From NCBI RefSeq assembly GCF_019431455.1, contig NZ_JAHYSR010000007.1:1-64000 (forward strand): a stretch of 64,000 nt of DNA, in the 5' to 3' direction. This document shows, piece by piece, positions 1,490 to 54,185 of this stretch. The translations under genes were made by a program, and so were the position numbers. The stretch's first letter is position 1, and every line of letters begins with the position of its first letter. Source of the stretch: Paracoccus bogoriensis (GTDB taxonomy: Bacteria; Pseudomonadota; Alphaproteobacteria; Rhodobacterales; Rhodobacteraceae). Below the pieces are notes generated by a model. It did no database searches. It saw nothing but the letters and a program-made list of their open reading frames with translations, and was not told where the DNA came from.

Positions 1490-2254
1490 ATGAAGGACGA
1501 TCTGGACCGGGCCGAACAGGCCGCGCGTGCGGCGGGTGCCGCCCTGATGACGCATTGGCGTGCCCGCGACCGGCTGGATGTGCGGGCCAAGCGGCGGGGC
1601 GATTATGTCTCGCAGGCCGATGCCCAGGCCGAACGGATCCTGCGCCAGCACCTGCTGCGCCCCGGCGAGGGATGGCTGGGCGAGGAAAGCGGCGCCCTGC
1701 CCGGCGCGCGGCGCTGGATCGTCGATCCGCTGGACGGGACCACGAATTTCCTGCGTGGGATCGGACATTGGGCGGTCTCGGTCGCGCTGGAGGATCGGGG
1801 CCGGCTGGTTCTGGGCGTGGTGCTCGACCCGGTCAGGGACGAGATCTTCACCGCGCATCTGGGCGGGGGGGCGTATCTGAACGGCCAAAGACTGGACCCC
1901 GCCCCGCCTGCGGGCTTCGACACGGCGCTGTTCGGCACCGGGCTGCCCTTTGGCGACATGGATCATATCGACGACCATGCCGACGACCTGCGCTGCGTGC
2001 TGCCGCAATCGGCGGGTGTGCGTCGGATGGGTGCGGCGGCGCTGGATCTGGCTTATGTCGCGGCAGGGCGGCTGGACGGGTTCTGGGAACGCCGCCTGCG
2101 CCCTTGGGACATCGCCGCGGGGCTGGTCCTGCTGCGCGAGGCCGGTTGCCGGGTCGAGGGCTGGACCGCCGAAGATCGCCCCGAGGACAGCGGCAACGTC
2201 ATCGCGGCGCCCGCGCCCCTGTTCACGGCCCTGGCCGGGGCGCTCAGACGCTGA
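1490..2254 (+). CDS. Inositol-monophosphatase-family phosphatase
   Basis: This 254-residue enzyme belongs to the Mg-dependent, lithium-sensitive inositol monophosphatase family, which removes phosphate from inositol phosphates, PAP or related sugar and nucleotide phosphates in the cytoplasm. The metal-binding motifs are in the expected order: GEES around residues 64-67, DPLDGTTNF at 79-87, and WDIAAG at 206-211. Length is typical. An in-frame TAG lies a short way upstream, so ATG 1490 is the likely start; the GAGGAAG before it is unusually close. The gene runs tail to tail into the FkbM gene with an 11-bp overlap. Family is clear, but whether the substrate is inositol phosphate, PAP or histidinol phosphate cannot be decided. 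Confidence 0.88.
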   Translation: MKDDLDRAEQAARAAGAALMTHWRARDRLDVRAKRRGDYVSQADAQAERILRQHLLRPGEGWLGEESGALPGARRWIVDPLDGTTNFLRGIGHWAVSVALEDRGRLVLGVVLDPVRDEIFTAHLGGGAYLNGQRLDPAPPAGFDTALFGTGLPFGDMDHIDDHADDLRCVLPQSAGVRRMGAAALDLAYVAAGRLDGFWERRLRPWDIAAGLVLLREAGCRVEGWTAEDRPEDSGNVIAAPAPLFTALAGALRR

Positions 2255-2981
2255 CAAGGCGCGCGTAAAGATCGCCCGACCGGGCATCCGGCGCCAGCCC
2301 TGCCAGAAAGGCCCGCGCTGCGGCCGCGTCCTGCCATTCCGGCCACAGAAAATCCGCCCGCTCACCCAGAACCGGGTTGAAACGGTATGCGCCCAAGGCC
2401 TCGAGCCGGTCGATCACCGCCAGCGTGCGGTGACGAAAGCCCGGCAGATATTCGACAGACAACATCGGCAGCGGCTGGCTGAGACCTGCCAGAACGTCCA
2501 GTTCAAACCCCTCGACATCAATCTTGACGTAATCGGGCAGACCATGATCCGCGATCAGCCGGTCCAATGTGGTCATGCGAACCTGCTGGCTGCGATCCCA
2601 CCGGACATGCCCGAAACCGGGCGCCAAGGGCGCCTCGCCGGTGAAACTGGCGCTGAGCGAGGACACCGTCGGGTGCAGCGACGAAACCGCCATCCGCGCC
2701 ATTGTCTCGACCGGGCCCACGGCCTCGCGGCGCAGCACGATGTCGCGCGGCAGGCTCAGCGCCAGGAATGCGGCGAAAGGCTCTTGCGGCTCGCAGGCCA
2801 CGACCCGCGCACCCGCTGCCCGCATCGCCCGCGACCGGCTGCCGACATGAGCCCCGATGTCAAAGACCAGGTCGCCGGGCCGCAGAAGCCTTGCGTGGAA
2901 ACGGTTGCTCGCGATGCGGCGCAGCGGATTGTAATAGATCACAAGGGACCGCATCAGTCCCAGACAGGCGCGCAATCCCAT
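2244..2981 (-). CDS. FkbM-family SAM-dependent methyltransferase
   Basis: This 245-residue protein carries the FkbM methyltransferase fold. A SAM-binding loop VFDIGAHVGSRS is at residues 39-50, the acidic post-motif sits in ACEPQEP at 62-68, and the family hallmark KIDVEGFE is at 153-160. Members O-methylate sugars, polyketides or other small molecules, often in polysaccharide clusters. There is no glycan cluster here, so the acceptor is unknown. The gene is a single unit facing the phosphatase, with their 3' ends overlapping by 11 bp. Its 5' end is about 140 bp from the divergent GTP cyclohydrolase gene, so the two promoters share that gap. Confidence 0.82.
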   Translation of the reverse strand: MGLRACLGLMRSLVIYYNPLRRIASNRFHARLLRPGDLVFDIGAHVGSRSRAMRAAGARVVACEPQEPFAAFLALSLPRDIVLRREAVGPVETMARMAVSSLHPTVSSLSASFTGEAPLAPGFGHVRWDRSQQVRMTTLDRLIADHGLPDYVKIDVEGFELDVLAGLSQPLPMLSVEYLPGFRHRTLAVIDRLEALGAYRFNPVLGERADFLWPEWQDAAAARAFLAGLAPDARSGDLYARLVSV

Positions 2982-3123: not shown

Positions 3124-4320
3124 ATGCTGCGACCTTTTCGTTCCGCAGGTGGGGGGGCCTTGGAAATGATGGCTGGGCAATCAGAGGTTCAGATTGCGGG
3201 ACAGGTGGCGGAAAGCAGTAGGGCAAGGAAGGCGCAGGGCGATCCTTTCGCCCCTGACGGCGGCCAGAAAATTGCCCGCGCCTTGACTGACCTGCGCCTC
3301 GGCCTGCCGGTCCTGCTGAGCGAGGCGGCGGGCGCGGCCATCGTCCTGCCCCTGGAGACCGTGCAGCCCGACCGTCTCGCGGCGTTGCAAGTGTCAGCTC
3401 TGCTGGTGCTGACCGCCCGCCGGGCCGAGGCGCTGCGCCTGCCCGCCAAAGGGTTCGATGTGGCCGCCCTGCCCGTGCCCGCCGATGCACGGCTGGACTG
3501 GCTACTGGCGTTGGCGGACCCTTCGCGGACGCCGCCCCCCTCGGCCGCCATTCCGCAAGCCGCGACGCAGAAAACCGGCAATCTGCACCGCGCAGCGATT
3601 CGGCTGGTCAAGGCCGCGGAACTGCTGCCCGCCGCGCTTGTCACAAGCGACGCGGCAATGGTCTCGGCCGCGCTGCGGTCGGGGCTTCAGCCTCTGGCGG
3701 CCGATGAGGCCCTGTCGCAGACCATTCTGCCGCGCGACCCGCGCCCGGTCTCGAATGCGCGCGTCCCGATGCTGGCCTCGCCCAATGGGCGGCTGCATGT
3801 CTTCCGCGATCCTGGCGGGGCCGAGCATTACGCCGTCGAGATCGGTCAGCCTGACCGCGCCACGCCGGTTCTGGTGCGCCTGCATTCGGCCTGTTTCACC
3901 GGCGACGTTCTCGGCAGCCTGAAATGCGATTGCGGCCCGCAACTGCGCGCGGCCCTTGCCGCGATGGAGGATCACGGTTCTGGCGTCCTGCTGTATCTGA
4001 ACCAGGAAGGACGAGGCATCGGGCTGGCCAACAAGATGCGCGCCTATAGTCTGCAGGATCAGGGGCTGGACACGGTCGAGGCCAACCACCGCTTGGGTTT
4101 CGAGGATGACGAGCGTGATTTCCGCACCGGCGCGGCGCTGCTGCGGCGGATGGGCATTTCCCGCGTGCGTCTGATGACGAACAATCCTGCCAAGATCGCG
4201 TGGCTGGACCGCGACGGGATCGAAGTCGTCGAACGCGTGCCCCTGCGCGTCGGACGCGGCCCGGAAAACAGCGCCTATCTGGACACCAAGGCCCGGAAAT
4301 CGGGGCATCTTCTGGCATGA
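3124..4320 (+). CDS. ribA: GTP cyclohydrolase II with N-terminal extension
   Basis: This 398-residue protein opens GTP to the diaminopyrimidine that begins flavin synthesis. The C-terminal half has the full GCHII signature: zinc ligands Cys257, Cys268 and Cys270 (spacing C-x10-C-x-C) and the catalytic motif YLNQEGRGIGL at 291-301. Residues 45-215 form an extra domain that I do not recognise as an active RibB; similar extended forms occur in Rhodobacterales. ATG 3124 has a good GGAAG ribosome site; ATG 3166 is an alternative. The next gene starts inside its stop codon (ATGA at 4317-4320). It may be the housekeeping RibA, or it may feed the specialised operon it heads. The core enzyme call is firm; the pathway is inferred. 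Confidence 0.88.
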   Translation: MLRPFRSAGGGALEMMAGQSEVQIAGQVAESSRARKAQGDPFAPDGGQKIARALTDLRLGLPVLLSEAAGAAIVLPLETVQPDRLAALQVSALLVLTARRAEALRLPAKGFDVAALPVPADARLDWLLALADPSRTPPPSAAIPQAATQKTGNLHRAAIRLVKAAELLPAALVTSDAAMVSAALRSGLQPLAADEALSQTILPRDPRPVSNARVPMLASPNGRLHVFRDPGGAEHYAVEIGQPDRATPVLVRLHSACFTGDVLGSLKCDCGPQLRAALAAMEDHGSGVLLYLNQEGRGIGLANKMRAYSLQDQGLDTVEANHRLGFEDDERDFRTGAALLRRMGISRVRLMTNNPAKIAWLDRDGIEVVERVPLRVGRGPENSAYLDTKARKSGHLLA

Positions 4321-5258
4321 CGCCCCGCGCTCTGTGGTGCATCGGCCCAGACCGGGCCGAACTGCGTCCCGCCTCGGAAGGCGAAGGGGTCGGGGTGCGT
4401 GCGCTGTTTTCGGGCATCAGCCGGGGCACGGAACGTCTGGTCCTGGCAGGCCGCGTCCCTGCGGGCGAACGGACCCGGATGCGTGCACCCTTCCAGGAGG
4501 GCGACTTCCCCTTTCCGGTGAAATACGGCTATGCCTCGGTCGGGCTTGCAACCGAGGGCGAACTGGCGGGACGCCCGGTCTTTGCGCTGTTTCCGCATCA
4601 GGACGCCTATCGCCTGCCCGAGGACGCCCTGATCCCCCTGCCCAAGGGCCTGCCACCCGAACGCGGGGTGCTGGCCGCGAACATGGAGACCGCGCTGACC
4701 ATCCTGTGGGACAGCGGCGCGGGGCCGGGCGACCGGATCGCGGTCGTCGGCGGCGGGTTGGTCGGGCTTCTGACCGCCAGCCTGGCCGCGCGCCTGCCGG
4801 GGGCCGAGGTCGTCGTGATCGACCTGCTGGACCGCGCCGCGCTGGCACGCAGTCTCGGCTGCGGCTTTGCCCATCCCGGTGACGCGCCCGGCGGACAGGA
4901 TGCGGTGATCCATACCAGCGCCTCGCAGGCCGGGCTGGCACTTGCCCTGTCTCTGGCCGGCCCGCAGGCGACCATCACCGAGGCCAGCTGGCACGGCGAG
5001 GGCAGCGTCGCCCTGCCCCTCGGCGCGGCCTTTCACAGTCAGCGCCTGCGGATCGTCAGCAGCCAGGTCGGCGCGATACCGCCTGATCGCGCACCGCGCT
5101 GGACCTATCGCCGCCGCCTGACCAAGGCGCTCGACCTCTTGCGCGACGACCGGCTGGACGCGCTGATCTCGGGCGAGACCGCCTTTGCCGACCTGCCCGA
5201 CGCCTATGCCGCGATCCTGTCGGACCCGGCCACCCTTTGCCACCGCATCCGCTACTGA
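4317..5258 (+). CDS. BchC-like medium-chain dehydrogenase (no zinc ligands seen)
   Basis: This 313-residue oxidoreductase has the medium-chain dehydrogenase fold: a GroES-like N-terminal half and a Rossmann domain with VVGGGLVGLL near 143-152. The usual catalytic-zinc Cys and the four-cysteine structural zinc loop of alcohol dehydrogenases are absent. In their place is SGISRGTE at 32-39, a motif resembling that of BchC (bacteriochlorophyllide dehydrogenase). It probably performs NAD(P)-linked redox chemistry on a hydroxyl or side chain. The start overlaps the cyclohydrolase stop by four bases, so the two are translationally coupled. No photosynthesis gene is nearby, so a role in bacteriochlorophyll synthesis is unlikely; the substrate is more likely the pterin- or flavin-like product of this operon. 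Confidence 0.75.
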   Translation: MTPRALWCIGPDRAELRPASEGEGVGVRALFSGISRGTERLVLAGRVPAGERTRMRAPFQEGDFPFPVKYGYASVGLATEGELAGRPVFALFPHQDAYRLPEDALIPLPKGLPPERGVLAANMETALTILWDSGAGPGDRIAVVGGGLVGLLTASLAARLPGAEVVVIDLLDRAALARSLGCGFAHPGDAPGGQDAVIHTSASQAGLALALSLAGPQATITEASWHGEGSVALPLGAAFHSQRLRIVSSQVGAIPPDRAPRWTYRRRLTKALDLLRDDRLDALISGETAFADLPDAYAAILSDPATLCHRIRY

Positions 5259-5267
5259 GGAGCCAGC

Positions 5268-5663
5268 ATGTTCGCCGTCGAAGTCCGGGACCATATCATG
5301 ATCGCCCATTCCTTTCCCTCACCCACCTTCGGGCCGGCGCAGGGGATGCATGGCGCCACCTTCACCGTCGATGCGGCCTTCTTCGCGACCGAGATGGACC
5401 ACGAAAGCCTCGTCGTCGATATCGGCCTTGCAACCGAGGAACTGGCGCGGACGCTGGCGCCGCTGCGCTACAAGAACCTCGACGAAATCCCTGAATTCGC
5501 AGGGAAAATGACGACGACGGAATTCCTGTGCAAACATATCTTCGACCAGATGGCCGCGACCGTCCGGGCGGGCGGCCTGAAGGATGGCGGGCGCGTTCGC
5601 AAGCTGCGGATCACGCTGCATGAAAGCCACATGGCCCGCGCCTGGTTCGAGGGGGACATCTGA
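5268..5663 (+). CDS. Divergent 6-pyruvoyltetrahydropterin synthase/QueD-family protein
   Basis: This 131-residue protein has the small tunnelling fold of the PTPS/QueD family, which normally acts on dihydroneopterin triphosphate. Several family positions are recognisable: His14 in MIAHSF, His28 in MHGA, the VVDIGL strand at 49-54, TTTEFLCKHIF at 82-92, and the LHESHMARAW tail. Two key features are altered. The HGH zinc motif reads HGA (Ala30), and the catalytic cysteine expected four residues before His28 is Ala24. It is therefore unlikely to be a normal QueD or PTPS. It begins 9 bp after the dehydrogenase with a GGAG ribosome site, in the same operon. The substrate is unknown. Confidence 0.75.
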   Translation: MFAVEVRDHIMIAHSFPSPTFGPAQGMHGATFTVDAAFFATEMDHESLVVDIGLATEELARTLAPLRYKNLDEIPEFAGKMTTTEFLCKHIFDQMAATVRAGGLKDGGRVRKLRITLHESHMARAWFEGDI

Positions 5664-5664
5664 C

Positions 5665-6453
5665 ATGGGCTTCTCCGCCGCCTGGCTGGCCCTGCGCGAA
5701 CCGGCCGACCGGGCGGCGCGCGATGCGGGGCTTCTGGCCCGCGCGGCGGCGCTGGCCGGGCCGCGCCCGGTGATCCTGGACCTTGGCTGCGGCACCGGCT
5801 CGACCCTCAGGGCGATGCGCCCGCATCTACCCGGTCAGACGCTGTGGCGCCTTGCCGATCTGGACGCGGACCTCCTGGCACGTGCCGCGACCGAGGCGCC
5901 GGGCCGCGCGACCACGCACAGGCTGGACCTGCGCGATCTGAACGCCCTGCCCCTGGGGGAGGTGACACTGGTCACGGCCTCGGCGCTCCTGGACCTGATG
6001 CCCGCCTATTGGGTCGAGGCGCTCGCCGCCCATCTCATGGCCGCGCGGCTGCCGTTTTACGCGGCCCTGTCCTATGACGGGATAATGGAATGGCAACCGC
6101 CCTTGCCCGACGACGACGCAATCACGCGCGCCTTCAATGATCACCAGAGACGCGACAAGGGACTTGGCCCCGCCCTCGGCCCCGCCGCCGCGTCCCGCGC
6201 GCCCGCAATCTTCGCCGCCGCGGGGTTTGCGGTCACGACAGCCAACAGCCCTTGGCGCATCGGCGCCGATCAGCAGGATCTGCACAATGCCCTGGTCCAA
6301 GGCATCGCGTCGGCTGCCGCCGAACAGGGTGCATCCAATGCCGAGGCCTGGGCGACGCGCCGCGCTCCTCTTGCCGCGTCCGAGCGCTGCGTCATCGGGC
6401 ATGGCGACATGCTGGCCGTGCCGCCCGCCTCTGCCCATCCCGAACCCAACTGA
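5665..6453 (+). CDS. Class I SAM-dependent methyltransferase
   Basis: This 262-residue protein has the SAM-binding motif VILDLGCGTGS at residues 36-46, an acidic motif II in RLADLDADLL, and a hydrophobic LVTASALLDLMP strand where motif IV lies. The start at ATG 5665 follows the previous stop by one base, which fixes it within the operon. It sits between a pterin-synthase homologue and a RibD-type reductase, so a small heterocyclic metabolite is the likely methyl acceptor, but this is inference from position. I see no motif that would mark it as a protein or RNA methyltransferase. Confidence 0.75.
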   Translation: MGFSAAWLALREPADRAARDAGLLARAAALAGPRPVILDLGCGTGSTLRAMRPHLPGQTLWRLADLDADLLARAATEAPGRATTHRLDLRDLNALPLGEVTLVTASALLDLMPAYWVEALAAHLMAARLPFYAALSYDGIMEWQPPLPDDDAITRAFNDHQRRDKGLGPALGPAAASRAPAIFAAAGFAVTTANSPWRIGADQQDLHNALVQGIASAAAEQGASNAEAWATRRAPLAASERCVIGHGDMLAVPPASAHPEPN

Positions 6454-6465
6454 GGAAAGACCATC

Positions 6466-7293
6466 ATGCACGCCATCGACCTCACCCCTCGGGTCTGGGA
6501 CAGGATCCTGGCGGTGCGCAAGGGCACCGCCTGCGCCTGCTGCGGCCGCTTCACCCCTGCGGAACGGGCAGCACTGGAACTTTACGGTCCTGTCGCGCGC
6601 CGCGACCTGGGGCCGGTCACGGTCGCTCAGATCGGGCAGTCGCTGGACGGGCGGGTTGCGACATGTTCGGGAGATGCCCGCGACGTGTCGGGCCCCGAGG
6701 GCCTTGCGCATCTGCATCGCCTGCGCGCGCTGGTCGATGGGGTTGTGATCGGCGTCCGCACCGCGCTGCACGACCATCCAAGGTTGACCGTGCGCCTGTG
6801 CAGCGGGCACGATCCGGCGCGCATCGTTATCGACCCGCAGGGGCGTTTGCCTGATGATGCGATGTTGCTTCGGCCCGGTGGTGCCCGCAGGGTGATCGTG
6901 ACCGCCTCTGACCGCGCCCGCGCTCCGGGCGTCGAGGTTCTGCGACTGCCTACCTATGGGGGCCGCCTCGACCCGGCACAGATCCTTTCGGGACTGCGCG
7001 AGATCGGCCTCGGCTCGTTGCTGATCGAAGGTGGGGGCCTGACGATCACAAGCTTCCTCGAGGCGGGTCTGCTGGACCTTCTGCAGGTCTCCATCGCGCC
7101 GCTGATCATCGGGTCCGGCCCGCAGGGCCTGACCACGCGCAATCCGGTCGCGAGGCTCGCCGACGCACTGCGTCCCGACACGCGCGTCTATGGCCTGGGC
7201 ACCGACATCGTTTTCGATTGCGGCCTGGGCGCCCATGCCGAACTGGCGCGGCGACCCCTGCACGACCGACCGGCGACCCGATACGCCCATTAA
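6466..7293 (+). CDS. Stand-alone RibD C-terminal-type reductase
   Basis: This 275-residue protein matches the reductase half of RibD (dihydrofolate-reductase fold), which reduces the ribosyl side chain of the GTP cyclohydrolase II product with NADPH. Visible features are QIGQSLDGRVAT (55-66), VVIGVRTALHDHPRLTVR (93-110) and LLIEGGGLTITSFLEAGLLD (185-204). The deaminase half is missing, with no HAE or PCAHHGR motif. Instead an N-terminal segment carries CACC (Cys23, 25, 26), which might bind a metal. The window also has a complete ribD at 52370-53383, so this is not the housekeeping enzyme. It is the last gene of the operon, 12 bp after the methyltransferase. A role on a 2-amino (pterin-like) intermediate is inferred. 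Confidence 0.8.
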   Translation: MHAIDLTPRVWDRILAVRKGTACACCGRFTPAERAALELYGPVARRDLGPVTVAQIGQSLDGRVATCSGDARDVSGPEGLAHLHRLRALVDGVVIGVRTALHDHPRLTVRLCSGHDPARIVIDPQGRLPDDAMLLRPGGARRVIVTASDRARAPGVEVLRLPTYGGRLDPAQILSGLREIGLGSLLIEGGGLTITSFLEAGLLDLLQVSIAPLIIGSGPQGLTTRNPVARLADALRPDTRVYGLGTDIVFDCGLGAHAELARRPLHDRPATRYAH

Positions 7294-45669: not shown

Positions 45670-46590
45670 TCAGGCCGGGCGGATGCGCTCTACCCTGCCC
45701 CGCCGGTCCAGCAGCAGCACCTCGCGCACATCCCCCAGCAGGGTGGCCACGGCCGCGATCTCTTCCGTGCTCATCAGGCAGGCCGCCGTCGAGAACCCGT
45801 CGGCCATGGCCGCACTGTCCGCCACCACCGCCACGCTGGACCATGGCGGTTCCTCGCCGCCAAGCGGGTTCAGGATATGGAAGATGCCGGGCGCCACGCT
45901 CAGCGCACCGGGGCTGGACACGGCCAGAGCCGTATCCTGCAAGACCACGCGGCCAAAGCGACCCTTCTGGGGGTCCAGAACACCCATCCGCCAAGGCCCT
46001 CCTGCCGTCGCCGTCTCGCCCATATCGACGCAGAGCCGCGTCAGACCCGCCTCGCGCAGGACTTGCCGCACCGCGTCGCTGGCCGCCCCCTGCGCGATCC
46101 CGTTCAGGCTGAGCGCCTGCCCCGCGTCCAGATGCAGGCCGCGCCGCCCCGGCGCGGGCAAGGCGACGCGGCCCCAGCCGACCAGCGCCCGTGCCGCGCT
46201 GATGTCGCCGCCCGTCGCATGGGCCAGCCACAGCGGCTGGATCGTCGGATCGAACCGCCCCCCGGTCGCACGGTGCAGTCGGTCGCAAAGGTCCAGCATC
46301 GCCCGCCAGCGCGCATCCAGATCGGGCAGATGCCCCGCCGCATTCAGGCGCGACAGGTCGGAGGCGGCGCGGAACAGGCTGAACCGGGCCTCGTAGGCCT
46401 CGATCTCGTGGCGGGCGCGGGCCAGGGCGGGGCGCGTCACCTCGGGCGGGCCATCCAGCGTGATGCTGACCTCTGCCCCAAGCGCCACGCCCCGCCATGT
46501 CAGGCGCGGGGCAGGTGCGGCACCGGCCGAGCCCGTCAGCCCGGTCGCGGCCGAGATCGCCAGAAAGCGGCGGCGCGACAGCCCGCTCAT
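45670..46590 (-). CDS. apbE: ApbE-type FAD:protein FMN transferase
   Basis: ApbE moves FMN from FAD onto a threonine of target flavoproteins in the periplasm. This 306-residue copy has a twin-arginine signal (SRRRFLAISAATG, residues 5-17), the conserved GGDISAARALVGWG-like segment and DMGETATAGGPWRMGVLDP. It is encoded after the NosR-like gene with a four-base overlap; in nitrous-oxide-reductase clusters this partner is called NosX. The NosR-like protein is its likely substrate. Confidence 0.87.
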   Translation of the reverse strand: MSGLSRRRFLAISAATGLTGSAGAAPAPRLTWRGVALGAEVSITLDGPPEVTRPALARARHEIEAYEARFSLFRAASDLSRLNAAGHLPDLDARWRAMLDLCDRLHRATGGRFDPTIQPLWLAHATGGDISAARALVGWGRVALPAPGRRGLHLDAGQALSLNGIAQGAASDAVRQVLREAGLTRLCVDMGETATAGGPWRMGVLDPQKGRFGRVVLQDTALAVSSPGALSVAPGIFHILNPLGGEEPPWSSVAVVADSAAMADGFSTAACLMSTEEIAAVATLLGDVREVLLLDRRGRVERIRPA

Positions 46591-48695
46591 GCGCCGGCCT
46601 CCTGCGGTTGCGGCACAAGGGCCGGAGGCCGCGAGCCGGTCCGCCCGGCGCGTCTTGCCGCCAGGACCAGCGGCACGCAGCGGCTTTGATCATCATGGAT
46701 CGCGACACAATCGAGGCATTGGAAACACTCGGAATAATCAATCCGACCGCTTTTCTCGATGGCACCATACCTGCATTTGACGCGGCACAGATGACAGGGA
46801 CTGCCGCATTCGACGCGCCGCGCGATCCAGTCGCGCCCGCGCAGCAGCCCGCCCAGGGCCATGAAGGCGCCCAGCGGGCAGAGATAGCGGCAAAAGCCCT
46901 TGAACAGCACCATGCCCAGGGCCAGCCAGAACAGCGCGTAGGCCACGAAATACCATTCGCGCTGGAAATGGACGGTGATCGCGGTCTTGAAGGGCTCGAT
47001 CTCGGCGGCCTTGTCCACATGCTGCGGCGCCAGAAAGACCAGCGCGACCAGCCCGGCCAGCGCGACGTATTTCAGCGATTTCAGCCGCCGGTCCCACCGG
47101 GCCGAGGGGGTGATCTGCGGCAGACGCAGCGCCCGGCCCAGATGATGCGCGAATTCCTGAAGCGCCCCGAACGGACACAGCCAGCCGCAGAAAAGCCCCC
47201 TGCCCCACAGCACGAAGCCCAGGATCGCCGCCGCCCAGACCAGCAGCGAAAACGGATCGTAAAGCAGAAAGGCATAGCTGCCCCCCTCGACGGCGCTGCG
47301 CAGCACCGCAAGGGGCGTGACGATCGACAATTGCCCCTGCCCCCAGAAGCCCACGAAGCCCGTCATCACAGCCAGGATCAGCAACCGCGCGGGCGTGAAA
47401 TGGCGCCAGCCCGCCAGCCGGTTCATCCGCGCGCCAAGCGCCCAGACCAACGCCCCCAGCCCCGTTGCCAGAAGGATCAGATCGACCTGCCGGTTCTGAA
47501 GCGCCTCAAGCCAGGGCGGCACAGGGACGGGCGGCACCTCGCGGAGGAAGAACCGCTCGTCGGTCTGGTGGTCCAGCGACAGTTCGACCCGGCCGACCTC
47601 GGGGGTGATATAGCCATGCTCGCGCACGGCCTCGATCAGCAGGGTGAAGGGCTCGGCGGGGTTGAAGCCCAGCCTGCGGTCGGTGCGCAGGATCAGCGCC
47701 GTCCCCTGGGGCACGCCGGGGGCCAGATCGACCAGGAAATCGGCATCGCGCAGCGCGATGGGCAGACCGCCCTGTTCGGCCTTGATCAGGTCGGGGGCGG
47801 TGTTGCGGACGAAATCCTCGCTGACCAGCCCATGCCGCCCTGCATCGATCAGCAGCAGGAACTCGTCCGTCGGTGCCACGCCGCGAAACCGGTCCATCTG
47901 GTCGATGGTGGACTGGTCCAGCGCCGCGCGGGCCAGTGCGGGCGGCGTCACATCGACCAGCCACAGGTCCAGATAGGGATCGTCCGGCCGGGCCCGGGCT
48001 TCGGGGTCGGATTGCGCCCAGATCGTGCCTGCAAAGGCCGCGTCGATCTGGGCATTGCTGACCTGAAGGCGGCTGACCAGCCCCTGCGCCACCAGATCGC
48101 CCCATGTCAGCGCCTCGTCATGGTCGAAATCGGGGCGTGCGGCGGGGGCGGCAACGCGGCCTTGCAGATGCTCGCGCGCGACGGTATGGGCGGCCGCCAT
48201 GATCGATTCATGCGCGATCCGGACCGAGGCCGTGGCCTTCGTCACCCCGTCCAGATGCACCAGCGCCGAGCCGCTGTCGGCGCCGCCATAGGGCGTGCCG
48301 ATGGTCATGGGCGACCAGATCGACTTGCCCGCATATTGTTCGAAGAACTCGCGGAACGGCCCCTCTCCCATGCCCGAGACGAAGATCGGCTCGTTGTGGT
48401 GGACCAGCCGCACGGTGACGATGGTCCCCTCGCGGTCCAGCACCACGACCACGTTGACCGGCGCACCGGCAAAGCCCGGCAGCGGCGCATAGGGCTGTGT
48501 GGTAAAAGCATAACCCGCCGGCGCGCCGCCCGAGTTCAGCACCTGATACAGGCCCTTGTCGTTCAGCGCCTCGCCCAGGGCGAAGGGCGGCGGGACATAG
48601 GCCAGCATCTCGTCGGCCGACAGTGCCTGGGCCCGCGCCTGCAAGGGCAGAAGGCCGATCAGCAACACGAGGACAAGACGAAGCAGCGACATCAT
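46587..48695 (-). CDS. nosR: NosR-family membrane flavo-iron-sulfur protein
   Basis: This 702-residue protein matches NosR, which supplies electrons for nitrous oxide reductase. It has a signal peptide (1-23), a periplasmic FMN-binding domain with DGVTKATASV at 149-158, membrane helices (about 405-600), two CPxG turns (CPFGALQEF, CPLGAF) and a C-terminal ferredoxin-like segment (CHLCRVKCRYG, CFQCLDC). The flavinylation motif has Lys153 where Gly is usual; Thr155 would carry FMN. No nosZ, nosD, nosF or nosY is in this window. It is co-encoded with apbE. It may serve another electron acceptor. Confidence 0.82.
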   Translation of the reverse strand: MMSLLRLVLVLLIGLLPLQARAQALSADEMLAYVPPPFALGEALNDKGLYQVLNSGGAPAGYAFTTQPYAPLPGFAGAPVNVVVVLDREGTIVTVRLVHHNEPIFVSGMGEGPFREFFEQYAGKSIWSPMTIGTPYGGADSGSALVHLDGVTKATASVRIAHESIMAAAHTVAREHLQGRVAAPAARPDFDHDEALTWGDLVAQGLVSRLQVSNAQIDAAFAGTIWAQSDPEARARPDDPYLDLWLVDVTPPALARAALDQSTIDQMDRFRGVAPTDEFLLLIDAGRHGLVSEDFVRNTAPDLIKAEQGGLPIALRDADFLVDLAPGVPQGTALILRTDRRLGFNPAEPFTLLIEAVREHGYITPEVGRVELSLDHQTDERFFLREVPPVPVPPWLEALQNRQVDLILLATGLGALVWALGARMNRLAGWRHFTPARLLILAVMTGFVGFWGQGQLSIVTPLAVLRSAVEGGSYAFLLYDPFSLLVWAAAILGFVLWGRGLFCGWLCPFGALQEFAHHLGRALRLPQITPSARWDRRLKSLKYVALAGLVALVFLAPQHVDKAAEIEPFKTAITVHFQREWYFVAYALFWLALGMVLFKGFCRYLCPLGAFMALGGLLRGRDWIARRVECGSPCHLCRVKCRYGAIEKSGRIDYSECFQCLDCVAIHDDQSRCVPLVLAARRAGRTGSRPPALVPQPQEAGA

Positions 48696-48807: not shown

Positions 48808-50553
48808 TCAGTTGGCCGAGGCCAGAAGCTGGTCGGGGATGCGGAAGGTCCAGACCGAACCGCCCTGGTTCAGATAGGACACCTCCTGCGCCACCTCGCC
48901 ACCCCAGAGCGGCACGGCCCCGCCCCAGCCCGAGACGACCGACAGCCATTGCACGCCATCTTCGTCTTCCCAGGTGACAGGCTGGCCGGTCACACCCGAC
49001 CCGGTCTGGAACTGCCAGAGAATCTCGCCCGTCTCGTCGTTGATCGCCTGGATATAGCCTTCGGGCGTGCCGTAGAAGACCAGCCCCCCCGCCGTTGCCA
49101 TGGTCGAACCCCAGAGCGGCGCGCCATTGGGAACCTCGAACTTGATCTCCATCGTGTTCGGGTCGATCGCCTTCAGCGCGCCGATATGATCCTCGAACAG
49201 CGGCTTGATGGTGAAGCCCGCACCCAGATAGGCCGCGCCCTGACGATAGGTGATCGGCTCGTTCCAGATATCCATGCCCCATTCGTTCGAGGGCACGTAG
49301 AAATAGCCCGTGCGCTGCGAATAGGACATGTGCTGCCAGTTCTTGCCGCCCAGGAAGCCCGGCACGGCCCAGACGACCTCGCCCTTTTGCCCGTCGGCTG
49401 CGTCCGCAGGGTTGCCCGGACGGTTCTCGGGATTGTAGATCGGGCGGCCGTTCTCGTCGATGCCGCTGGCCCAGGTGATATCCTTCACGAAGGGCATGGC
49501 GTCCACGAAGCTGCCATCCTCGCGGTTGAGCACATAGAAGAAGCCGTTGCGATCCGCCGTGGCCAGGCGGCCATTGCCGTTGGCGTCGGTGAAGGGGATC
49601 ACCTCGTTCACACCATCATAATCCCAACCCTCCCAGGGCGTGGTCTGGAAATACCACTTGATCTCGCCCGTGGCGGGGTCGAGGCCGATGCGGCTGGCGG
49701 CATAGAGGTTGTCGCCCTCGCGCAGGTGGCTGTTCCAGGGCGCGGGGTTGCCGGTGCCGAAGATCAGCGTGTCGGTCTGGGCGTCATAGGTGCCGCCCAG
49801 CCAGGGCGCGCCGCCGCCGGTTTTCCACATGTCGCCCGGCCAGCTGGCATTCAGCGTGCCGGTCATGGTGCTTTCCTCGCCGTTCAGCTCGCCCATGTGC
49901 CCCTCGATCACGGGGCGGCGCCAGACCAGTTCGCCATTCTCGGCGTCGCGGGCCTCGATGGCGCCGACGATGCCGAACTCACCGCCGGAATTGCCGGTGA
50001 TGACCAGTCCGTTCACGATCAGGGGCGCGGCGGTGTAGCTGTAACCCTCGCGGTAATCGGCGATGCGCTTGTTCCAGACGACCGCGCCGGTCTTGCGGTC
50101 CAGCGCGACGATGCGCGCGTCCAGCGTGCCGAAATAAATGTTGTCGCCATAGATCGCCGCGCCGCGGTTGATCACGTCGCAGCAAGGCAGGATGCCTTCG
50201 GGCAGGCGGGCGTCGTATTGCCAGATCTTGCGGCCGGTCTTGGCGTCCAGCGCGAAGACGCGGCTATACGAGCCGGTCACATACATCACACCGTCATAGA
50301 TCAGCGGCTGCGATTGCTGGCCGCGCTGGCGTTCGCCGCCGAAGCTGAAGGACCAGGCCGGGAACAGGTTCTTCACTGTCTCGCGGTTGATCTGGTCCAG
50401 CGGGCTATAGCGCTGCCAGTCCCGGCCCATGCCGTTGGTCACAACCTGAGTCGTGATGGTCTGGTCGTTCAGAAGATCCTCCTCGGTCACCTGTGCGAAC
50501 GCGCCAGGCGTCGCCATCATGCCGATGCAGGCGGCCATTACGAACTTGTTCAT
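48808..50553 (-). CDS. PQQ-dependent alcohol dehydrogenase with lanthanide signature
   Basis: This 581-residue periplasmic quinoprotein oxidises a primary alcohol and passes electrons to cytochrome c. It has a signal peptide ending GAFA-QV at about residue 20, the eight-bladed propeller, the vicinal disulfide Cys124-Cys125 in PCCDVINRG, and metal ligands Glu192 and Asn269. The catalytic region is [10 protein letters not shown]: Asp311 with an extra Asp313, the pattern of lanthanide-dependent XoxF and ExaF/PedH enzymes rather than calcium MxaF. Sequence seems closer to the ethanol-type group. No cytochrome or PQQ gene is adjacent. ATG 50553 has GGAGGAGAGA ahead; further open sequence is antisense to guaA. 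Confidence 0.88.
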
Positions 50554-50751
50554 CCTCTCTCCTCCCAAGGGGCCGGGCTGGACCGGGCGACGGTGACGGC
50601 ACGGCAGAACAGACATGCCCGCAGTATCAGCAGTGCGAGAGAGGCTTGAAAATTGCACATTGGTCTTAGGTCCGCCTTGGCCATGACGCATTGCGCGGCG
50701 ATGGGCCTCGGGGGGCTTGCGCGAGGCGGGTGGCGCGCTTAAAGGCGGGCC

Positions 50752-52311
50752 ATGACACAGCATCAGCGCCTTCTGATCATCGACTTCGGCAGCCAGGTGA
50801 CCCAGCTTATCGCGCGGCGTCTGCGCGAGCTGAACGTCTATTGCGAAATCCGCCCCTTCAACCTGCTGACCGATGCGGCGCTGCGCGAGATGGCGCCGCA
50901 GGCGATCATCCTGTCCGGCGGACCGGCCAGCGTGACCGATCCGGGCAGCCCCCGCGCACCTCAGGCGGTGTTCGAGATGGGCGTTCCGGTCTTCGGCATC
51001 TGCTACGGCCAGCAGGTGATGATGGCGCAGCTTGGCGGTGCCGTCGAGGCGGGCCATCATGCCGAATACGGCCGCGCCTTCATCACCCCCGCCGCGGGGC
51101 ACAAGGGCGATGGCATCTTTGCCGGCTTGTTCCAGACGGGCCGCGAAGAGGTCTGGATGAGCCATGGCGACCGCGTCACGCGGCTTGCCCCCGGCTTCGA
51201 GGTGATCGGCACTTCGCCCAACGCCCCCCTTGCGATGATCGCGGACGAGGCGCGGCGCTTCTATGGCGTGCAGTTCCACCCCGAGGTGCATCACACCCCC
51301 AATGGTCGCCGGATGCTGGAAAACTTCGTCCGGCTGGCGGGCTTCACCGGCGACTGGACCATGGCCTCTTACAAGGACGAGGCGATCCGCAAGATCCGCG
51401 AGCAGGTCGGCGACCGCAAGGTGATCTGCGGCCTCTCGGGCGGGGTGGACAGCTCGGTCGCGGCGGTTCTGATCCATCAGGCGATCGGCGACCAACTGAC
51501 CTGCGTCTTTGTCGATCACGGCCTTCTGCGCCTGAACGAGGCCGAGCAGGTCGTGGCCATGTTCCGCGACAATTACAACATCCCGCTGATCCACGCGAAT
51601 GAAAGCGAGCTGTTCCTGGGCGCGCTGGAAGGCGTCAGCGATCCCGAGGTCAAGCGCAAGACCATCGGGCGGCTGTTCATCGACGTGTTCCAGAAATACG
51701 CAAGCCAGATCGAGGGCGCGGATTTCCTGGCCCAAGGCACGCTTTACCCGGACGTGATCGAAAGCGTCAGCTTCTCGGGCGGGCCTTCGGTCACGATCAA
51801 GTCGCACCACAATGTCGGCGGCCTGCCCGAGAAGATGGGCCTGAAGCTGGTGGAACCCCTGCGCGAGCTGTTCAAGGACGAGGTCCGCGCGCTTGGCCGC
51901 GAACTGGGCCTGCCCGAAAGCTTCATCGGCCGCCACCCCTTCCCCGGCCCGGGCCTGGCGATCCGCTGCCCCGGCGAGATCACCCGCGAAAAGCTGGAGA
52001 TCCTGCGCAAGGCCGATGCGATCTTCATCGACCAGATCCGCAAGCATGGTTTGTATGACGAGATCTGGCAGGCCTTCGTGGCCATCCTGCCGGTCCGCAC
52101 CGTCGGCGTGATGGGCGACGGGCGGACCTACGACTATGCCTGCGCATTGCGGGCCGTGACCTCGGTTGACGGGATGACAGCGGATTACTACCCGTTCACC
52201 CACGACTTCCTGGGCGAGACCGCGACGCGGATCATCAACGAGGTCAAGGGCATCAACCGCTGCACTTATGACATCACCTCGAAGCCCCCGGGCACGATCG
52301 AGTGGGAATGA
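50752..52311 (+). CDS. guaA: GMP synthase (glutamine-hydrolysing)
   Basis: GuaA converts XMP to GMP. This 519-residue protein has the class I amidotransferase domain (Cys84 in GICYGQQ, and the His-Glu pair in HPEVHH), the ATP-pyrophosphatase domain with [13 protein letters not shown] (about 229-241), and the dimerisation domain ending GTIEWE. It is divergent from the PQQ dehydrogenase gene, with about 200 bp between, and ends in a strong terminator. Confidence 0.97.
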
Positions 52312-52334
52312 AGGCCGCGCGCCCCTCTCACCGC

Positions 52335-52359
52335 AAGCCCGCCCCGAGGCGGGCTTTTT
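52335..52359 (+). terminator. Terminator after guaA
   Basis: AAGCCCGCC and GGCGGGCTT flank a CCGA loop, and TTT follows. It ends 11 bp before the convergent ribD stop. Confidence 0.85.
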
Positions 52360-52369
52360 CATGCGCCGT

Positions 52370-53383
52370 TCACGGCGCGTCGGGTGTCCAGCGATGAAAG
52401 AGGTCGTTGCCCAGACGCCGCGTCTCGACCAGCCGGAAACGCGGGGCGGCAGCAAGACTGGGCCAGTCGGTCGCGCCGATGGCAGGACGGGCCGCCGCGC
52501 CCAGCGCCAGTCCGGCGGTGTAGCCCATCACCTGATCGACCAGCCCCGCCCGCAGCAGATCCGCGGCCAGAACGCCGCCCCCCTCGCAGAAAAGCCGCGT
52601 GATACCGCGCTGCGAGAGTTCGCCCATGATTTCGGGCAATTCACCCTGCATGAACCACAGCGGACCATGGGTTTCGTCCTCGGGCGGCATCGGCGGCGGC
52701 GAGCCGCGCGTCAGCACCACGCGCACCGGCTGGCGGGGCGTGGCGATGCCGCGCACGTTCAGATGCGGCAGATCGGTCCGCGCCGTCCGGGCACCCACCA
52801 TTACCGCATCGTGGCTGGCGCGCATCGCATGGACATGCAGCCGCGCCTCGGGGCCGGTGATCCAGCGGCTTTCACCATCCGGCATGGCGATGCGTCCGTC
52901 GAAACTGGTCGCCAGCTTCAGCGTCACGAAGGGCCGCCCCCGCATCAGGCGGCTGAGAAAACCGGCCTGCAACCGCGCGGCCTCGGGCGCCAGCACGTTC
53001 TCGGTCAGGGTCACGCCGCCCTCGCGCAGGATCGCATGGCCCGCACCACAGACGCGCGGGTCAGGATCGGTCATGGCCGAGACGACGCGCGCGATGCCCG
53101 CCGTGACCAGCCCGCTGGCGCAGGGCGGCGTGCGGCCATGATGGGCGCAGGGCTCCAGCGTCACATAGGCCGTGGCGCCGCGCGCGGCCTCGCCCGCCAT
53201 GTCCAGCGCCATGCGTTCGGCATGGGGGCGCCCGCCGGGCTGGGTCCAGCCGCGCCCCACGACGCGGCCATCCCTGACGATGACGCAGCCCACCGCCGGG
53301 TTCGGCCAGACATTGCCCAGACCCCGCGCGGCAAGGCGCAGGGCATGGCGCATGTGGCGGATGTCGTCCTCGGGGGCGGTCAC
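52370..53383 (-). CDS. ribD: RibD, bifunctional deaminase/reductase of riboflavin synthesis
   Basis: RibD deaminates the GTP cyclohydrolase II product and then reduces its side chain. This 337-residue protein has both halves. The deaminase zinc site is HAE (54-56) and [11 protein letters not shown] (Cys79, Cys88), and the reductase half has [11 protein letters not shown] and [14 protein letters not shown]. It lies 8 bp after nrdR, a common alphaproteobacterial order (nrdR-ribD). The rest of the rib genes do not follow here; guaA is next, convergent. This is the normal enzyme and contrasts with the reductase-only homologue at 6466-7293. Confidence 0.95.
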
Positions 53384-53856: not shown

Positions 53857-54014
53857 GGATGGTCCCTCTGGTCCGGCAATCCACCGTCACTATAGGCAGA
53901 GCCGCAAGGATTGGGTAGCCTAATCCACGACCTACCAGATCCGCCCCGCCTTCTGTGTCCCGATTGTCGCGTTTGCCCCCTTGCGCACCAGACGCGGCCG
54001 GTCTAGCGTGACGC

Positions 54015-54105
<91 letters not shown>

Positions 54106-54107
54106 TC

Positions 54108-54185
54108 ATGACGCAGCCCGCGCGCTGCCCCTGCGTATCGCCCCCTTGCCGATATCCCGACCGACAGCAAGGAGGAGGCGTGTGA
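54108..54185 (+). CDS. 25-residue leader ORF between TPP riboswitch and thiD
   Basis: An ATG three bases after the aptamer opens a 25-codon frame (start MTQPARCPC) that ends with TGA at 54183-54185, overlapping the thiD GTG by the usual coupling bases. GGAGGG inside the riboswitch (54091-54096) could be its ribosome site, 11 bases away. The peptide is cysteine-rich and unlike any family. Translation is inferred, not shown. Confidence 0.35.

Follow-up and report, generated by a model that had tools for sequence, protein, structure and literature searches.

The window analysed here, a stretch of 64,000 nucleotides of Paracoccus bogoriensis (NCBI RefSeq assembly GCF_019431455.1, contig NZ_JAHYSR010000007.1, positions 1 to 64,000), carries a five-gene operon encoding a GTP cyclohydrolase II (GCHII), a medium-chain dehydrogenase (DH), a T-fold protein of the PTPS-IV subfamily, a class I SAM-dependent methyltransferase (MT) and a RibD reductase domain alone (RibD_C). 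We propose, with a probability of slightly under one half, that its enzymes make up the soluble part of a dedicated pathway converting GTP into a pterin-type compound that bears methyl and sugar groups and, in many lineages, is linked to a lipid. The gene set and its conservation are supported by computation and the entry intermediate fairly so, from knowledge of the enzyme families; ring formation, the product and its role are inferred.

Conservation of the gene set

All five open reading frames (ORFs) were intact and ran in the same direction between positions 3124 and 7293, with start and stop codons checked (Table 1). Their tight packing agreed with the preliminary description of this DNA: one 4-bp ATGA overlap joins the GCHII and dehydrogenase genes and the remaining gaps are 9, 1 and 12 bp. 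Four of its family calls were upheld by Pfam and NCBIfam, the ORFs matching GTP_cyclohydro2 (3.4e-59), PTPS (3.5e-20), Methyltransf_25 (6.2e-8) and RibD_C (8.1e-35, with the deaminase domain absent). The second protein, announced as BchC-like, is indeed a dehydrogenase (ADH_zinc_N weak at 2.4e-4, under its cut-off), but its likeness to BchC was limited to residues 14-50 and reached 27.7 bits against a family cut-off of 291. The PTPS-family protein, considered divergent, turned out to belong to a known subfamily with a solved relative.

Table 1. Features of the window discussed in the text
Feature	Position	Strand	Remarks
Inositol-monophosphatase-family (IMP) gene	1490-2254	+	co-conserved with the cluster
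FkbM-family methyltransferase	2244-2981	-	co-conserved with the cluster; read away from the operon
GTP cyclohydrolase II (GCHII), with N-terminal extension	3124-4320	+	zinc-ligand motif and catalytic-type Tyr; 55% to another full GCHII (paralogue) elsewhere in the genome
Medium-chain dehydrogenase (DH), polyol/alcohol-dehydrogenase fold	4317-5258	+	without the usual catalytic-zinc motifs
PTPS-IV (T-fold) protein	5268-5663	+	has the FGPAQ signature and Glu119; lacks the Cys and the third zinc His
Class I SAM-dependent methyltransferase (MT)	5665-6453	+	
Reductase-only RibD_C, ribosylaminopyrimidine reductase type	6466-7293	+	
Complete RibD	52370-53383	-	

The surroundings of PTPS-IV genes were compared in 126 loci from Alpha- and Gammaproteobacteria and Actinomycetota. 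Eighty were species-genome loci, the best 80 of 539 encoding stretches, so the sample favours close kin; 20 alphaproteobacterial loci were drawn from 45 (19 of the 20 with no CDP-alcohol phosphatidyltransferase in the stretch), and the 14 actinobacterial and 12 plasmid loci were taken from 27 and 20 matches, respectively. Genes were counted by tblastn within the stretches, some of which were cut by contig ends. The dehydrogenase was found in 122 loci, the methyltransferase in 112, RibD_C in 107 and a GT4 glycosyltransferase in 93, lying at most 6 kb from the PTPS gene in 122, 112, 104 and 90 of them. They were followed by IMP (64, all within 6 kb), FkbM (63, with 62 within 6 kb), GCHII (63), CDP-alcohol phosphatidyltransferase (55, with 50 within 6 kb), YbhN-like (49), sulfatase-like (41), cytochrome b561 (34), OpgH-like (25) and creatininase (14) genes. 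PTPS, DH, MT and RibD_C occurred together in 98 loci, and with GT4 in 69. Since these genes keep each other's company in most of the 126 loci, the five-gene operon is real and not a chance arrangement. Conservation past close strains, on which the preliminary description had made its idea of a separate pathway depend, was thus found, with cluster genes recurring across phyla. The five genes do form a dedicated set distinct from the riboflavin genes, but an incomplete one: GT4 belongs to the core and GCHII is present in only half of the loci.

PTPS-IV was detected in 45 of 385 alphaproteobacterial genomes (about 1 in 9), in 27 of 396 genomes of a sample of the actinobacterial phylum, where 17 of the matches were distant (34-40%), and on 20 of 72,556 plasmid records. 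The nearest relatives found were in Paracoccus (PTPS 96% in locus L004); Paracoccus marcusii (L007) and P. zeaxanthinifaciens (L045) are among the species with the cluster. A 59-kb mobilizable plasmid of Microbacterium (L092) and a conjugative plasmid of Neorhizobium (L099) carry cluster genes, and such a presence on mobile plasmids suggests horizontal spread. On the Streptomyces plasmids L093 and L094, the PTPS-IV gene stands by itself near MEKHLA- and cupin-domain genes, the rest of the cluster being absent in 20 kb. On two Rhodobacterales plasmids, PfkB-family sugar kinases lie beside the cluster (L097:11997-12887 and L098:7834-8751). Two alphaproteobacterial genomes of 1.4-1.6 Mb (L157, L159) hold a compact set of GCHII, RibD_C, MT, GT4, PTPS-IV, DH and creatininase genes; the retention of seven genes in very small genomes argues for an important product.

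The PTPS-IV protein and the proposed entry reactions

The sole PDB sequence match of the window PTPS-IV protein at E 0.001 was SCO6650 of Streptomyces coelicolor (3d7j; E 4.7e-40, 139.7 bits). The FGPAQ signature, ascribed to the PTPS-IV subfamily of COG0720 (AGeNNT 2017, PMC5445326), is present in the window protein and exact in 119 of 127 aligned sequences. For a cluster of 561 sequences, the accessible part of the same report gives PF00925 and PF01872 as neighbours and leaves the product unnamed (PMC5445326); this combination, GCHII with RibD_C, was found at the window. No counterpart of the catalytic Cys of the CxxxHGH-type motif of PTPS-I/II was detected between H14 and H28 in the 127 sequences (one of them gapped there), unlike in the QueD of the same genome (L084), which keeps it. 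The HGH zinc motif reads HGA in the window protein, as in 121 of 126 scorable sequences, and HGH in five only (L176-L180), one row being gapped. Glu119, whose equivalent anchors the 2-amino/N3 edge of the pterin in PTPS and QueD, was kept in all 127. Because this Glu is universal while the catalytic Cys is lost and HGH is mostly altered, PTPS-IV has, as judged from the alignment, the look of a protein with a pterin pocket that lacks the known PTPS catalytic site. A role as QueD in queuosine synthesis was rejected for it, as it is devoid of the QueD catalytic residues and the true QueD, accompanied by QueC- and QueE-like ORFs, is encoded on contig C11. The five actinobacterial proteins that have HGH but no Cys are deeply branching and PTPS-IV-like (34-40% to the query from Streptomyces), and their genes adjoin DH, RibD_C and GT4 genes, with MT not detected; this arrangement is possibly an older form of the pathway.

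The window GCHII contains the zinc motif HSxCxTGD...CDC and the catalytic-type Tyr (KMRAYSLQ) expected of this family. Met takes the place of this Tyr in eight actinobacterial loci, of which two are clusters on Streptomyces plasmids and six are their close relatives. A creatininase gene accompanied all eight Met-type enzymes vs 4 of 55 Tyr-type loci, a tally that leaves out one unreadable second piece of GCHII in L005. Since the association works one way only, creatininase had to be dropped as a strict indicator of the Met type. SCO6655, a GCHII in which Met stands for the Tyr and which forms FAPy, is reported (Spoonamore 2006) to stop at the formylated intermediate. An enzyme of the creatininase family from Sinorhizobium has been demonstrated to be an AFRPP formamidase yielding 2,5-diamino-6-ribosylamino-4(3H)-pyrimidinone 5'-phosphate, DARoPP (PMC9478397). 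With a formamidase of this family acting after the Met-type GCHII, the two types of cluster would thus arrive at the same intermediate, DARoPP. In L095, the creatininase and RibD_C ORFs overlap by 4 bp.

GCHII itself looks like a replaceable supply gene; it seems exchangeable because half of the loci have none. In the GCHII tree, the housekeeping copy of the window genome, the only such copy included, falls beside cluster copies from Puniceibacterium and an uncultured relative, which suggests that clusters may have recruited GCHII repeatedly.

The top PDB matches of RibD_C were 2azn (5e-25), an archaeal protein, and 6p8c (1e-24), a 2,5-diamino-6-ribosylaminopyrimidinone phosphate reductase. 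The cluster RibD_C proteins are 38-89% identical to that of the window, and the corresponding half of the genome's own RibD is 30% identical. No RibD deaminase was detected in the 126 loci by tblastn with an own-genome protein query at 1e-4, a search whose positive control was the window segment 52949-53383. Nor was lumazine synthase (RibH) detected in them at 1e-3 with either of the two RibH proteins of the genome. The 2-amino group is therefore probably kept, as had been proposed from the operon alone.

For the dehydrogenase, the predicted model (pLDDT 93) was nearest to 4oh1 (gutB; Z 30.7, 2.5 A over 288 residues), idonate, xylitol and sorbitol dehydrogenases scored Z 29-30 (2.3-2.5 A over about 285 residues) and plain alcohol dehydrogenases trailed by 1-3 units (Z 27-28.6). 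The model has the overall fold of MDR polyol/alcohol dehydrogenases. Zinc-dependent members of this family carry a catalytic zinc Cys and a His-Glu motif; here, by motif reading without residue superposition, SGISRGTE and KYGY replace the expected GICGTD-like and GHE-like motifs, and Ser35 and Tyr72, standing where the zinc Cys and His are expected, were invariant (23 of 23). A phmmer search against PDB gave a weak match, from about residue 70 onward only. The methyltransferase model showed a generic class I fold (3mgg, Z 20.2, 3.3 A over 232 residues; others Z 17 or less) that offered no clue to the substrate. GT4 was nearest to Tll1590 and then, at low score, to glycosyltransferases of the MshA and PimB types.

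The lipid module and the genomic background

GT4 and lipid genes were absent near the operon in the Paracoccus loci. In the window genome, they were located on contig C44, where the genes for a CDP-alcohol phosphatidyltransferase, a sulfatase-like protein, a YbhN-type protein and GT4 form one tightly packed operon, preceded by cytochrome b561 in reverse orientation. This proposed second half of the pathway, lying on another contig, had been missed in the preliminary description. CDP-alcohol phosphatidyltransferases are recognised by a DGxxAR-type motif; the transferase L104 scored 48.8 bits against PF01066 and reads DGIDGWLARR...GARFDLEVD.

The CDP-alcohol transferase module is statistically tied to the PTPS-IV core. 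The transferase was found in 26 of 385 alphaproteobacterial genomes, 23 of which also have PTPS-IV (Fisher p 1.5e-21, a value that ignores phylogeny), and of the three others two showed weak matches (E ~1e-9) and one was a 74%-complete genome. The two genes lie 10 kb apart or less in 15 of the 23 shared genomes. Among 28 searched genomes whose PTPS-IV stretch has no transferase, 25 carry it elsewhere; L063 and L073 were omitted from this count, the stretch of L073 already having one. The 23 shared genomes and the 15 close pairs, together with the position of the core GT4 inside the lipid operon of the window genome, speak against two merely co-occurring pathways, one making a pterin glycoside with the core genes and the other a phosphoglycolipid with the transferase module. 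That arrangement would account for the location of the two operons on different contigs in the window genome and for the absence of the transferase from about half of the sampled PTPS-IV genomes, and we regard it as rather unlikely. OpgH and the CDP-alcohol transferase were also considered as strict alternatives to each other and rejected as such, with 15 loci having OpgH only (at least 40% identity), 2 having both and 8 transferase loci having a distant OpgH.

The genome (3.0 Mb, 97 contigs) also contains another full GCHII, a canonical QueD, two lumazine synthases, a complete RibD and a RibBA; read by eye, the GCHII half of the RibBA seems degenerate. Given these, the operon is extra to riboflavin and queuosine synthesis. 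It could still serve as a riboflavin side-operon, in which an additional GCHII and reductase, both from riboflavin enzyme families, boost vitamin B2 and the other genes are bystanders; in Sinorhizobium meliloti, deletion of ribBA cuts flavin secretion without auxotrophy (PMC9478397). This explanation is disfavoured and appears highly improbable to us, as the genome has housekeeping copies of these genes, deaminase and RibH went undetected in the clusters, no FMN riboswitch was found in the window, and PTPS-IV, GT4 and MT accompany the other genes in more than one phylum.

The second lumazine synthase, of the RibH2 type (contig C8:66144-66611), was matched in 43 of 385 alphaproteobacterial genomes at 1e-20. 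Only 11 of the 43 have PTPS-IV (p 0.009), a far weaker tie than that of the CDP-alcohol transferase, and RibH2 was rejected as a hidden partner of the operon and retained as a weak rival. Elsewhere in the window, a TPP riboswitch scored over the gathering threshold (54013-54114), just upstream of ORFs that by reading are thiamine-like. On the minus strand, also by reading, the C-terminal part of an ORF at 48808-52455 resembles a PQQ-type alcohol dehydrogenase and 46587-48695 encodes a NosR/NapH-like membrane iron-sulfur protein.

The proposed pathway, its alternatives and its meaning

In the scheme that we favour, GCHII would open GTP to give DARoPP and the reductase-only RibD would turn its ribosyl into a ribityl chain without deamination, leaving the 2-amino-4-oxo edge in place. 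The IMP-family phosphatase may then strip the phosphate, the zinc-less polyol-dehydrogenase-like protein may oxidise a hydroxyl, and PTPS-IV may bind the 2-amino-4-oxo ring and assist its closure to a pteridine. Methylation, then glycosylation by GT4, would follow. Finally, the CDP-alcohol phosphatidyltransferase could link the product to a phospholipid, with the YbhN-type and sulfatase-like proteins moving or modifying it at the membrane.

Several observations weigh against this scheme. Its third step may be wrong because simple ring closure on the chain would leave no need to reduce the ribosyl beforehand, and an N-ribityl, flavin-like product fits the reductase better. On NCBIfam, the window RibD_C scored higher with the general RibD C-terminal domain (115.5 bits) than with the archaeal diaminopyrimidine reductase (95.1), both values being below the cut-offs, which counts mildly on the same side. 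RibD_C was not detected in seven of the eight Met-type loci, nor MT in 7 of 14 actinobacterial loci (L174-L180), within the stretches read. The eight Met-type/creatininase loci form one clade in the GCHII tree, so their pairing perhaps reflects a single event, and the four Tyr-type loci with creatininase are all alphaproteobacterial. By BLAST, the CDP-alcohol transferase was not found in 22 of the 45 PTPS-IV genomes of the class, which means that lipid attachment is not universal, and an OpgH-like glycosyltransferase was present in 10 of 19 transferase-less PTPS-IV loci read.

A deaminase-free flavin-like compound had been named beside a methylated pterin-like one in the preliminary description. 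Here the ribityl would stay on nitrogen, and an N-ribityl 2-amino-pteridine would arise from the diaminopyrimidine and an external carbonyl, to be methylated and glycosylated afterwards. Retention of the ribityl chain would best explain why a ribosyl reductase is dedicated to the set, and both the missing deaminase signal in the loci and the second lumazine synthase in the genome are in line with it. On the other side stand the lack of RibH matches in the same loci and the few genomes that RibH2 shares with PTPS-IV. We consider this alternative unlikely, though the most credible of the rivals.

Synthesis of F420 also starts from a ribityl-aminopyrimidine, and the operon could supply a precursor of F420 or of a deazaflavin akin to it. 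It is the deaminated compound that F420 synthesis requires, however, and no CofH match was obtained in the window genome at E 0.001, a search whose threshold was passed by 3 of 14 control genomes. An involvement of PTPS-IV in archaeal F420 synthesis is mentioned as unpublished work in one paper (PMC5041015); this route nevertheless seems to us the least probable of all.

Our pterin scheme shares with the pterin glycosides of cyanobacteria and green sulfur bacteria the logic of a pterin plus a sugar, with a PTPS homologue and a glycosyltransferase. Those systems employ FolE (GCHI) and an active PTPS, whereas the set here has GCHII and RibD_C, together with a PTPS-IV in which the catalytic Cys is missing. 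SCO6655 resembles the Met-type GCHII next to PTPS-IV in the Streptomyces plasmid clusters and the six relatives and differs from the window enzyme in having Met for Tyr; to our knowledge, no pathway has been assigned to it. In the archaeal ArfA/ArfB/ArfC entry to riboflavin, the reductase acts before deamination. The BrbF formamidase and RibD route has the same first intermediates and a deformylase of the creatininase family (PMC9478397). Both differ from the window-type loci, in which deaminase and RibH were not detected and the genes are linked to PTPS-IV, GT4 and a methyltransferase.

What is already known is the PTPS-IV family, its GCHII and RibD_C neighbourhood (2017) and one structure. 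SCO6650 (PDB 3D7J) and its relatives share the FGPAQ signature and the PF00925 and PF01872 neighbours with the window; in the part of the report seen, the neighbourhood does not include GT4, MT, DH, creatininase or the lipid module, and PF00925, which here is GTP cyclohydrolase II, is labelled FolE2 (PMC5445326). A search of openly licensed papers, a collection that lacks most subscription articles, brought up no description of the full gene set, of the split lipid module, of the co-occurrence or of the entry by two routes, nor any function or product of the PTPS-IV cluster.

Altogether, the analysis points to a pathway, at times plasmid-borne, that some Actinomycetota share with roughly one ninth of the alphaproteobacterial genomes sampled and for which the papers searched gave no product. 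It provides a testable scheme made up of a single entry intermediate, a core of five enzymes and a membrane module of known family chemistry, and would give a place to the orphan proteins SCO6650 and SCO6655 as well as to many genes annotated as '6-carboxytetrahydropterin synthase'. Going further, one may imagine a new class of membrane molecule, in which a methylated pterin head group, a sugar and a phospholipid make up a membrane-bound, redox- or light-active cofactor, with a GCHII/RibD route replacing FolE. The cytochrome b561 genes in the loci are cited for the redox reading, and the core is kept by some genomes of 1.1-1.6 Mb; we hold this extension to be improbable at present. If the pterin were truly lipid-linked, it would represent a new kind of membrane cofactor.

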